Of a DNA stretch of 64,000 bases, positions 26,012 through 55,095 are shown piece by piece (the first letter of the stretch is position 1; every line of letters begins with the position of its first letter). Below the pieces are notes generated by a model. The model did no database searches, was not told the DNA's origin, and saw only the letters and a list, made by a program, of their open reading frames with translations. The stretch comes from Patescibacteria group bacterium (GTDB taxonomy: Bacteria; Patescibacteriota; Microgenomatia; UBA8517): contig DASZQR010000010.1 of assembly GCA_035549555.1 (NCBI GenBank), forward strand, positions 124,001 through 188,000, in the 5' to 3' direction. A program made the position numbers and the translations under genes.

Positions 26012-26401
26012 ATGGCAAAAACAAAAGTAACTAAAAAAGAAGAACCAATAAAATTTCCGTCGTCAGTCTTGCGCCCAGTACAGACTTTCTTGCAAGATCA
26101 ATTGCATGTCTTAGATCGCCAAAAGAAAAATCTTAAAGAAGAAGATCCCTTTTCAAATCATGCAAGAGCAGATGATAATGCAGCACTGGACACTGAAGCA
26201 GAGGAGCAATTTGGCCATGCGACAACATCAGCTCTTCGTGAACAGATTGATAAAAAAAGAATTGAAATTCGTAAAGCTCTAACAAGAATTAAATTGGGTA
26301 AATACGGAATCTGCGAAAACTGTGGTAAGATGATTGACACAGATCGCTTGATGGTTTATCCGCAAGCTTCGCTTTGTGTATCCTGCGAAAAGAAAAAATA
26401 A
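26012..26401 (+). CDS. TraR/DksA-family zinc-finger protein
   Basis: A 129-aa protein with a helical N-terminal coiled-coil part and a C-terminal C4 zinc finger (YGICENCGKMIDTDRLMVYP then CVSCEKKK; Cys pairs at about 104/107 and 122/125). TraR/DksA proteins enter the RNA polymerase secondary channel to modulate transcription, in some cases with ppGpp. The N-terminal part has DDNAALDTEAEEQFGH, with acidic residues where DksA has its tip. TAATG coupling joins it to the pseudouridine synthase. Confidence 0.88.
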   Translation: MAKTKVTKKEEPIKFPSSVLRPVQTFLQDQLHVLDRQKKNLKEEDPFSNHARADDNAALDTEAEEQFGHATTSALREQIDKKRIEIRKALTRIKLGKYGICENCGKMIDTDRLMVYPQASLCVSCEKKK

Positions 26402-27102
26402 TGGACAATCCTCAAGTAATCTTCGAAGATGATTACATTCTCGCTCTAAATAAACCAGCTGGCTTTGTTGTAAACGATTCAAATACTATTTCAGATGCGC
26501 CAAGTCTCCAGGATTGGATTGATAAAAATTATGATTTTGAAATTGCCCACAATAAAATGTTACGAAACGGAATAGTACACAGATTAGATAAGCCAACTTC
26601 CGGAATTATTTTAGTTGCCAAAAATGAAAATATTTTTCATGAATTACAAAAAGAATTTTTTGATCGCGAAGTAAATAAGGTTTATGTTGCATTGGTTCAT
26701 GGAGAAATGCAGGGCATTGGTGAAATTAATGCAAAAATTGGCAGACTTCCTTGGAAGAGAAGCAAATTTGGAGTAATTGATAATGGCCGCGATGCACTAA
26801 CAAAATATAAAGTGGCACGAAGTGTCACCCTGAGCGAAGTCGAAGGGTCTAAAGAATATAGTTTGCTCGAATTATATCCAAAAACAGGCCGCACTCACCA
26901 ATTAAGAGTTCACTTAAAACATATAGGGCATCCAATAGTGGGGGATTTTTTGTATGCAGGCAGAAAAGTTTCAAAAAAAGATTTACAAATTTTTGGCCGC
27001 TTAATGCTTCATGCCAAAGAAATTGAATTTATTCATCCAGTTACAAAAAAGAAAATAAAATTAGAAACCAATTTACCAAAAGAATTTGAAAAATTTTTGT
27101 AA
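26401..27102 (+). CDS. RluA-family pseudouridine synthase with repeat-derived insert
   Basis: A 233-aa RluA-type enzyme: start MDNPQVIFEDDYILALNKPA, catalytic HRLDKPTSGIIL (Asp about 61), LYPKTGRTHQLRVHL and GDFLYAGRK. It converts uridine to pseudouridine in rRNA or tRNA. Around residues 140-151 the chain has RSVTLSEVEGSKE, which replaces a short loop before the YSLLEL strand. Its DNA is a palindromic repeat word (26827-26848) also seen in the ABC transporter at 54682-54703. Start at ATG 26401 overlaps the DksA-like stop (TAATG). Confidence 0.9.
   Translation: MDNPQVIFEDDYILALNKPAGFVVNDSNTISDAPSLQDWIDKNYDFEIAHNKMLRNGIVHRLDKPTSGIILVAKNENIFHELQKEFFDREVNKVYVALVHGEMQGIGEINAKIGRLPWKRSKFGVIDNGRDALTKYKVARSVTLSEVEGSKEYSLLELYPKTGRTHQLRVHLKHIGHPIVGDFLYAGRKVSKKDLQIFGRLMLHAKEIEFIHPVTKKKIKLETNLPKEFEKFL
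26827..26848. repeat. Palindromic repeat inside the RluA-type gene
   Basis: A 22-bp imperfect inverted repeat beginning ACCCTGAGCG and ending GTCGAAGGGT. Arms ACCCT/AGGGT and inner CGA/TCG pair. It contributes codons T-L-S-E-V-E-G. A near-identical word at 54682-54703 sits in the same codon phase of an unrelated gene. Confidence 0.75.
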
Positions 27103-53367: not shown

Positions 53368-55095
53368 ATGTATAAAACACTTAAAAAATATCATGAATAT
53401 TTAATGATCAGAAAATTCTGGTTTATTTTGTTTATTGTCACAACAACGATTTCGGTTGTTATTGATTTCTCGACTCCTTATTTTTCCAAACTTTTTATTG
53501 ATAAAATACAAGCCAATAATTTAAACGGAGTTCTTAGTCTTTTATTTTTATATTTAGCTATAATGATTGTCGGAAATATTTTTGGCAACATCAAAAACTT
53601 TTCCGGAGATATCTCAGCAGTTGATGGAGTAAAAAAACTAAAACTTGATGTTTTCAAACAAATTCAGGATTTAGATTTCGCTTACCACACTCAAAGAAAT
53701 ACTGGTTCTTTAATCAGTGCTTTTAAACGAGGAGAAAATGCCTTTTGGGATTTATATGATAGATTTTATTCCCGAGTTTATCCTGTTATTGTCGGCTTTG
53801 TTATTTTAGTTTGGTATTTTTTGAGAATTGATTACAGAATAATTGTTATTTTTATTGTCTCGGCAATTATTACTTTAATTATTACCAAAACCCTTTTGCC
53901 ATTAAATATTAAAAGAAGAAAGGCAGTTAATGACAAAGAAGATGAAATCTCAGGAATAATTACAGATAATTTAATTAATTATGAAACTGTCAAACTTTTT
54001 GCAAAAGAAGACTGGGAGCAAAATAGATTAGATAAAGAATTATCTGATTGGAAAAAAATAATCTGGAAATATTTTGTAACCTATCGATACATTGATACAG
54101 CTCTTGGAAATTTAATTAATCTCGGCGTCTTTCTTGTACTTTTTATGTCTTTTAATTTGGTTTCTGGAAAAACAATTGGCCTTTCAGATTTTGTATTAAT
54201 TATTTCAGCTGTTTCGTTATTTTTTCCTCAATTATTTAATATGGTTTATAGCATCAGGCAAATTTCTCAAGGTTATGCAGATATTAAAAAATATTTAGAT
54301 ATTCTCGACGAAGAAGTTCAAATTAAAGATCCCGCAAATGCAACAATATTAGATCACGTCAAAGGCGATATTAATTTTAAAAATATTTCCTTTGCATATA
54401 AATCAAGCCGTGGAAGTGCGGTCAAAAATATTAATTTGAAAATCCCAGCTGGAAAATCAATTGCTTTTGTTGGTAGGTCTGGAGTTGGCAAAACAACTTT
54501 AGTGCGATTATTAATGCGTTTTTATGATCCAACAAATGGAAAAATTACAATTGATGGAATAAATATAAAAGATTTTACAAAAAGCAATTTGAGATCTTTT
54601 ATGGGAGTTGTTCCCCAAGAGCCAATTCTTTTTAATAATACTATTCGATACAATATTGAATACGGAGCCGAAAAGTCTACGACCCTGAACGAAGTCGAAA
54701 GGGCAGCAAAAATTGCTCATATTGACGGGTTTATTAATAGTCTCCCAGAAAAATATAAAACCGAGGTTGGAGAGCGCGGAGTGAAATTGTCTGGCGGGCA
54801 AAAACAGCGCCTTGCAATTGCAAGAATGATTTTAAGTAATCCAGATATTATTATATTTGACGAAGCAACAAGCCAATTGGATAGCGAAAGTGAAAAATTA
54901 ATTCAAGATGCTTTTTGGAAGGCAGCCAAAGGTAAAACAACAATTATTATAGCTCACCGTCTTTCAACCATTATGAAAGCAGATGAAATTATCGTTATGG
55001 AAAAAGGAAGAATTGTCGAGCGTGATTCTCACAAAAATCTGCTGGCAAGAAAAGACAGTTTATATTCTAAATTCTGGAATTTACAACAAAGTTAG
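53368..55095 (+). CDS. ABC transporter, fused permease-ATPase (exporter type)
   Basis: A 575-aa type-I exporter: N-terminal six-helix transmembrane domain (about 18-300) and C-terminal NBD with Walker A GRSGVGKTT (about 372), Q-loop, signature LSGGQKQR, Walker B IIIFDEATS and switch His in IIAHRLST. A homodimer would pump a lipid, peptide or drug outward. Around residues 437-446 the chain KSTTLNEVERAAK is encoded by a near copy of the palindromic repeat seen in the RluA gene. TATAAT about 50 nt upstream. Confidence 0.93.
   Translation: MYKTLKKYHEYLMIRKFWFILFIVTTTISVVIDFSTPYFSKLFIDKIQANNLNGVLSLLFLYLAIMIVGNIFGNIKNFSGDISAVDGVKKLKLDVFKQIQDLDFAYHTQRNTGSLISAFKRGENAFWDLYDRFYSRVYPVIVGFVILVWYFLRIDYRIIVIFIVSAIITLIITKTLLPLNIKRRKAVNDKEDEISGIITDNLINYETVKLFAKEDWEQNRLDKELSDWKKIIWKYFVTYRYIDTALGNLINLGVFLVLFMSFNLVSGKTIGLSDFVLIISAVSLFFPQLFNMVYSIRQISQGYADIKKYLDILDEEVQIKDPANATILDHVKGDINFKNISFAYKSSRGSAVKNINLKIPAGKSIAFVGRSGVGKTTLVRLLMRFYDPTNGKITIDGINIKDFTKSNLRSFMGVVPQEPILFNNTIRYNIEYGAEKSTTLNEVERAAKIAHIDGFINSLPEKYKTEVGERGVKLSGGQKQRLAIARMILSNPDIIIFDEATSQLDSESEKLIQDAFWKAAKGKTTIIIAHRLSTIMKADEIIVMEKGRIVERDSHKNLLARKDSLYSKFWNLQQS
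54682..54703. repeat. Degenerate palindromic repeat inside the ABC transporter
   Basis: Begins ACCCTGAACG and reads GAAGTCGAAA then GG; near match to 26827-26848 with about three changes. Codons T-L-N-E-V-E-R, the same phase as in the RluA gene. Here it appears to replace a normal stretch rather than lengthen the protein. Confidence 0.6.

Follow-up and report, generated by a model that had tools for sequence, protein, structure and literature searches.

Background

Short palindromes lying in frame inside genes are known from Rickettsia and from the CGTC and GTAG classes of REPs; in R. conorii the gene for tRNA pseudouridine synthase B carries one such element, an RPE (PMC3733652). The CGTC REPs, reported from Bacteroidetes, have a stem of 8-9 bp and a loop of 4-5 nt, include intragenic units and have no associated transposase (PMC3733652). 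Separately, loops of the GNA and GNNA type have been reported to give extraordinarily stable, nuclease-resistant DNA minihairpins (PMC4686876).

The locus described here is a short repeat in an RluA-type pseudouridine synthase gene of a Patescibacteria genome (G000), which is small and of low GC (assembly of 1.01 Mb in 16 contigs; the genomes of its relatives are of 0.4-1.5 Mb). The window is the whole stretch of 64,000 nucleotides that was analysed, C10:124001-188000; positions without a contig name in Table 1 and in the first paragraph of the results are those of the window. On balance, and with modest confidence, we read the repeat as one copy of a dispersed, REP- or RPE-like selfish hairpin of about 21 nt which is tolerated in genes, with patching at lagging-strand microhomologies as its probable route of spread.

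The element resembles the RPEs of Rickettsia and Wolbachia in being a short palindrome that lies in frame in genes of many functions, apparently tolerated, in reduced genomes; 72 genic copies were found, in many unrelated families. The likeness to RPEs is one of description, and there are differences. RPE-1 is described as longer, whereas the present element is 21 nt with a GNA-loop core, occurs in Patescibacteria-like genomes and many phyla, and has one documented length-neutral exchange. With the CGTC REPs it shares the small hairpin, the intragenic units, the absence of any transposase detected in G000, and a GTC foot in most Bacteroidota copies read, in the RluA copy (TGTC) and in the copies on contig C8 (cgtc at C8:856). 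It differs in that most copies from the relatives have no CGTC, and in its stem of about 5-6 bp, broken by tandem G.A, with a 3-nt loop. Like the GTAG REPs associated with RAYT it is a dispersed, bulged hairpin and sometimes genic, but its feet are CTTG, TTTA, GTCA, CCTG and similar, with no GTAG class, G000 has no RAYT, and no REPtron was seen. A MITE would have the terminal inverted repeats of an IS and a fixed target-site duplication, whereas this element is a single 21-nt hairpin. A search of an open-access library yielded no match to the sequence itself and nothing relevant on the peptides that it encodes.

Results and Discussion

A dispersed repeat with sharp boundaries

The 20-mer ACCCTGAGCGAAGTCGAAGG is matched exactly at 26827-26846 (+) and with two mismatches at 54682-54701 (+), where shuffled sequence gives an expectation of 0.01 such matches in the window. 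With up to three mismatches it occurs at 10 places in the whole assembly, all of them forward, against none in the control. The repeat at 26827 is therefore real and dispersed, as the initial annotation had supposed, and the genome-wide count that it proposed shows other copies in a single orientation. A looser pattern gave 16 matches in the whole assembly (controls, 1+1). The element has the 21-nt consensus RYCCTGAGCGNAGYCGAAGGR, with sharp boundaries, and at least 15 copies in the 1.0 Mb of G000. A position-specific score over the 21 positions, built from other genomes, found 15 copies on contig C10 and two on C8 in the 453 kb of G000 scored; in 2 Mb of order-3 random sequence nothing exceeded 10 bits. 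The element itself is thus well supported. The features of the two window copies are collected in Table 1.

Table 1. Features of the two window copies and their host genes (window positions).
Feature	Position	Strand	Basis
RluA-type pseudouridine synthase gene, element as T-L-S-E-V-E-G	26401..27102	+	ORF opens at TTG 26374, ATG 26401
TGTC directly 5' of element	26823..26826	+	resembles CGTC tag of CGTC-type REPs
Dispersed hairpin element	26827..26848	+	RYCCTGAGCGNAGYCGAAGGR at 26827-26847 plus closing T; exact match, 40.6 bits, covarying arms
Arms of RluA copy (putative pairing)	ACCCT 26827-26831, AGGGT 26844-26848	+	sequence and literature
Tandem G.A of RluA copy (putative pairing)	26832-26833/26842-26843	+	sequence and literature
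GC stem of RluA copy (putative pairing)	26834-26835 with 26839 and 26841	+	sequence and literature
Loop and bulge of RluA copy (putative)	GAA loop 26836-26838; T bulge 26840	+	sequence and literature
ABC exporter (ABCB-like) gene, host of second copy	53368..55095	+	ORF and homologue alignment
Element-like 21-mer in ABC ATPase	54682..54702	+	19/21 of consensus, 28.3 bits

Altogether 144 copies were collected from G000 and 27 relatives. Conservation among them spans positions -1 to 19 relative to the core motif (21 nt), and outside this stretch the information falls to background apart from weak preferences. A TGTC-like 5' flank is common to some copies (C10 positions 205803, 229796 and 665149, and C8) but not to most, and GTC occupies the three bases preceding the conserved purine in only 10 of the 144.

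Several arrangements of the copies in G000 were seen. In the dnaX linker (C10:111500-111545) one element is nested in another, giving ATCCTGAGCGA, ACCCTGAGCGAAGTCGAACGGGG and AGTCGAAGGA in that order. At C8:787-876 two units of a GCAA-loop variant (the GNNA type) with a CGTC/TGTC foot form an inverted pair, which looks like a REP dimer. One hydrolase gene holds two copies 81 bp apart (C10:229715 and 229796) in the same antisense frame, as PSTSLG and PSTTLR. Two further copies, C10:698112 and 698308, lie within one short intergenic stretch, and caggttcaaatcctgcacccgccgcc, directly before the second, resembles the 3' end of a tRNA gene.

The hairpin and its core

The word had been called palindromic. 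It has the form of a hairpin but is not a full palindrome: two 5-bp arms, ACCCT and AGGGT, stand around GA-GC-GAA-G(T)C-GA. Evidence for pairing of the arms comes from positions 0 and 19, the outermost pair, left unfixed by the search pattern. Of 138 distinct copies, 120 have a Watson-Crick pair there, where 68 are expected and the maximum of 2000 shuffles was 84, and the pair alternates between C-G and T-A. Within G000 the core GAG[CT]GNAG(N)CGA occurs with other arms that are also complementary (CCCT/AGGG, TCAT/ATGA, ATGGT/ACCAT and CTCT/AGAG), and the core GAGCGTAGCGA carries the complementary arms CACATTAG/CTAATGTG; CATTAG/CTAATG is likewise among the complementary arm pairs of this genome. 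Because the arms covary, the element is taken to fold as DNA into a hairpin whose core is GA-GC-GNA-G(T)C-GA.

When the central five positions were left free, 94 of the 150 matches listed in the relatives had G-N-A-G, for which 1/64 is expected, and five had GNNA-G. By comparison with described hairpins the core would be a GNA-loop DNA minihairpin of the GC-GNA-GC type, with sheared G.A pairs in tandem; minihairpins of this class reportedly withstand heat and nucleases extraordinarily well. Judged from the sequence, the tandem G.A pairs would adjoin the arms. In the usual copy the closing C is preceded by an additional T or C (GAAGTC), a departure from the exact GCGAAGC sequence for which stability was measured, and with the nearest-neighbour DNA parameters of ViennaRNA the main variant folds in its arms only, the inner pairs not being predicted.

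The two copies in the window

The RluA copy was said to lengthen a loop between beta strands, and the structures bear this out. Relatives in the PDB (1prz) show an eight-residue gap at the element, and the AlphaFold2 model places the element residues at the tip of a beta-hairpin between strands 142-153 and 160-169 (pLDDT 89 overall and 70 for the block 151-160). Across 29 orthologues, in an alignment of 30 sequences, the loop is free to vary in length and in sequence. Other repeat-like inserts occupy it in the orthologues, namely TTYNLQPTTYNLQPTT (rluA of G054), EEDRSKRRT, NFQFPIS and YNLQFTIYNY, so several families of repeats seem to share this loop as a hot spot.

The ABC copy fared differently. 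The initial annotation took it to be a repeat in a protein without shared ancestry at that site, but the same columns of distant ABC transporters read TMVEVE (plant ABCB19) and TMDEIE (P-gp, ABCB1), a T-x-x-E-[VI]-E pattern present without the repeat, and the orthologues in related genomes align through the site, mostly with one residue of difference. An inserted loop is therefore rejected here, this being an outcome that the initial annotation had itself named as refuting its reading. Window positions 54682-54702 may be a decayed patch, or may coincide with the normal T-x-x-E-V-E helix of the family; the likeness to the element may have been inherited or may be due to constraint on the protein. 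In G002 the ABC orthologue has CTGAGCGAAATCGAACAG at the orthologous position, which is also element-like.

Copies in genes and their reading frames

Both window copies do lie in codon phase 0, as T-L-S-E-V-E-G in the RluA-type protein and T-L-N-E-V-E-R in the ABC protein, as first noted. The shared phase had been offered as a signal, but it is ordinary, since the 72 genic copies use all five open frames: TLSEVEG (18), PFDFAQG (18), PSTSLR (17), LRLRSG (11) and PERSRR (8). The frame with an in-frame TGA occurs in none of the 72. Sense and antisense copies number 26:46, near the 2:3 ratio of the open frames. The agreement of the two window copies thus requires no selection, and selection for a single codon phase is ruled out.

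By a simple longest-ORF caller, 72 of the 144 copies are genic and nine lie at gene edges. The genic share of 50-56% is far below the coding share of about 89%, so genes are avoided. Of the two options put forward at first, that the element is tolerated or selected in coding sequence, the former fits better, copies being depleted in genes.

The hosts in G000 include RluA, DnaX (in its linker), PheT, a ComF-like phosphoribosyltransferase, a secreted Asn-rich protein, a DNA methylase and the hydrolase with two copies; the names PheT, ComF-like, PQQ dehydrogenase-like and PGK-like were read from the sequences. Compared with orthologues, most genic copies add loop residues, exactly seven in PheT and eight to 12 in several others. 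The ComF-like protein gains five to eight relative to most orthologues, and the PQQ dehydrogenase-like and PGK-like proteins eight each. The element usually adds residues in variable loops, in any open frame and in both orientations relative to the gene. Two candidates were set aside: the RNase H copy at C10:665673, which shows only a one-residue gap against 3u3g and is not a clear insert, and a MviN-like match (G039 C3:117422), a loose match with one mismatch.

Distribution

The core motif was found in 45 of the 95 genomes searched, with 0-25 matches in each, while the reversed-pattern controls gave zero. Could unrelated proteins simply happen to encode TLSEVEG through their codon usage? The ABC copy, which matches the normal residues of its family, would suit such a coincidence. 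The empty controls in 95 genomes and the presence of copies in five frames and between genes speak against it, and for the element as a whole it is refuted; as an account of the repeat we regard it as extremely unlikely, and it stays in play for 54682-54702 only.

With one genome per species, the exact 21-mer is present among the matches listed in Bacteroidota, Acidobacteriota, Chloroflexota, Proteobacteria, Spirochaetes, Patescibacteria and others, and in viral contigs too. With so many phyla among the matches, the element is widespread and not peculiar to G000. It is missing from half of the relatives, even inside the family. The genome G086 is rich in it, with 25 exact copies, often within short tandem repeats of the GAACTGT type, and several of its copies lie inside glycosyltransferase-like linkers.

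Insertion and exchange

Three comparisons at the DNA level could be made with an element-free partner of the same genus, and two of these resolved as exchanges. In a tRNA nucleotidyltransferase-like gene, 17 nt of element in G039 stand in place of 17 native nt in G008; 13 positions differ, the net change is 0, and both flanks are near identical. G039 also shows an exchange in an ATP-grasp-like gene, of net +12 nt, again with the flanks kept. In the third comparison an intergenic copy of G008 proves to be an insertion of 47 nt between 7-nt direct repeats (CTATTCT), a pattern that resembles a target duplication or deletion by slippage and weighs against the reading favoured here. A constant target-site duplication is absent from the three. 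At two further sites in G086, compared with G062, the flanks are too divergent to resolve the event.

A perfect copy in a HMG-CoA synthase-like gene of G063 reads as involving little or no change in length. In the UvrB of G006 (C8) a perfect copy, VLRLRSGL, stands at a site where a similar motif is the norm for the family, presumably with little or no change in length too; the same protein holds a second, different repeat, DPSTGSGPGG.

The mixture of net 0, +12 and 47-nt events is unlike the clean transposition of a fixed unit, and the replacement of native sequence by some copies points to spread without a dedicated transposase.

The obvious alternative is a non-autonomous element of the REP type, moved in trans by an IS200/IS605-type transposase (Y1, TnpA-REP) that has since been lost from G000, so that the genic copies would be ordinary insertions. 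In its bulged base and its foot tag the hairpin does resemble REPs, and in many genes the copy is simply an insertion of about 7-10 residues. Moreover, Y1_Tnp is present in 36 of 45 carriers of the element and in 24 of 50 non-carriers (p=0.0015, an association with which genome size is confounded), which keeps this alternative alive. On the other side, Y1_Tnp (PF01797) was not found in G000, and eight of the other carriers also have none, making nine in all. A Y1 gene flanked by its repeats, as in the REP/RAYT arrangement, was not seen; one element only (G065:C19) lies within 1 kb of a Y1 gene among the matches listed. Nor is the length-neutral exchange in the tRNA nucleotidyltransferase-like gene a transposition. 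We consider a lost transposase possible, though doubtful.

Orientation and the replication strand

Contig C10 (810 kb) has mostly negative GC skew between about 156 and 710 kb and mostly positive skew elsewhere, and all 15 scored copies on it face one way, a pattern noticed after the fact. Local skew in G000 alone gave p=0.07 for orientation. Among the 48 copies in the relatives with a |skew| of at least 0.1, the structured strand was on the C-rich side in 37 (p=2e-4). A permutation over 119 sites related orientation to local GC skew with p=0.0009, or p=0.012 without G086; three genomes (G092, G039 and G042) run opposite to the trend. Orientation did not follow the coding strand of the gene (p=0.44), and that candidate was dropped. 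Copies in other phyla show no bias (58 of 112), so the skew effect may be lineage-specific. The viral contigs do show one (45 of 61), but it was set aside as evidence because phage skew mostly follows the coding strand.

Insertion of IS200/IS605 elements into the lagging-strand template would favour the strand opposite to the C-rich placement. The strand preference seen here is the reverse of that expectation and, with the net 0 and +12 exchanges, departs from the clean lagging-template insertion of that family, which again weighs against a transposase.

A strand bias could also arise after insertion. If insertion were unbiased, copies with the structured strand on the lagging-strand template might be lost by hairpin-directed deletion (cleavage of the SbcCD type, or slippage). 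Such a loss accounts for the skew association, and G016 and G042 hold one inherited copy in common, an instance of long retention. It leaves the block exchanges and the covarying arms unexplained. As it addresses the strand bias only, it is compatible with the other explanations; we think it rather unlikely.

The orientation of the 15 main-contig copies and the skew association in the relatives might instead mark a functional oriented sequence, either a KOPS- or Chi-like site of the nucleoid or replication fork or an RNA element, selected at its positions. Such a role fits poorly with only about 15 copies per Mb, with the lack of the element in half of the relatives, with about half of the copies being genic in any frame, and with two of the three same-genus sites compared being empty in the other species. 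We judge it very improbable.

How the element may spread

The reading that we favour is of a tolerated selfish hairpin spread by patching, and its mechanism may be pictured as follows. Short single strands bearing the hairpin would outlive other DNA debris. Where lagging-strand template is exposed they would anneal to it, needing a microhomology of only a few bases, and the Okazaki strand would incorporate them, so that a short patch is replaced or gained. Such patching would need no transposase, would vary in net length, would leave no constant target duplication, and would bring the structured strand to the C-rich side, the lagging strand. Of the patches that fall in genes, only those that are in frame and tolerated would survive. 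Survival there is made likelier by the five open frames and by a length of 21 nt, a multiple of three.

In its most specific form, a transposase-free selfish hairpin whose GNA loop guards its strands from nucleases, with some 17-30 nt exchanged or inserted at lagging-strand microhomologies, we put the proposal forward tentatively, as a possibility and not as a probability. Short-patch double illegitimate recombination, in which short single-strand segments reportedly substitute at microhomologies and leave clustered changes, shares the microhomology substitution but is said to involve arbitrary DNA debris, not a hairpin family.

Significance

New here are the GNA-type core with its covarying arms, the exchange events, the association with strand and the extent of the element within the group. 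For annotators, LSEVEG, PFDFAQG, PSTSLR and LRLRSG in the predicted proteins of these bacteria are traces of the repeat. The element bears on the spread of REPs that have no transposase and of the Rickettsia palindromes inside genes, as it can be traced through genomes with and without it. Length-neutral exchange in a conserved gene, covarying arms on a nuclease-resistant type of loop and the link to the replication strand combine into a hypothesis concrete enough for testing with oligonucleotides. If general, transposase-free patching would explain both the REPs that have no transposase and the palindromes found inside genes, the RPEs and the CGTC REPs.
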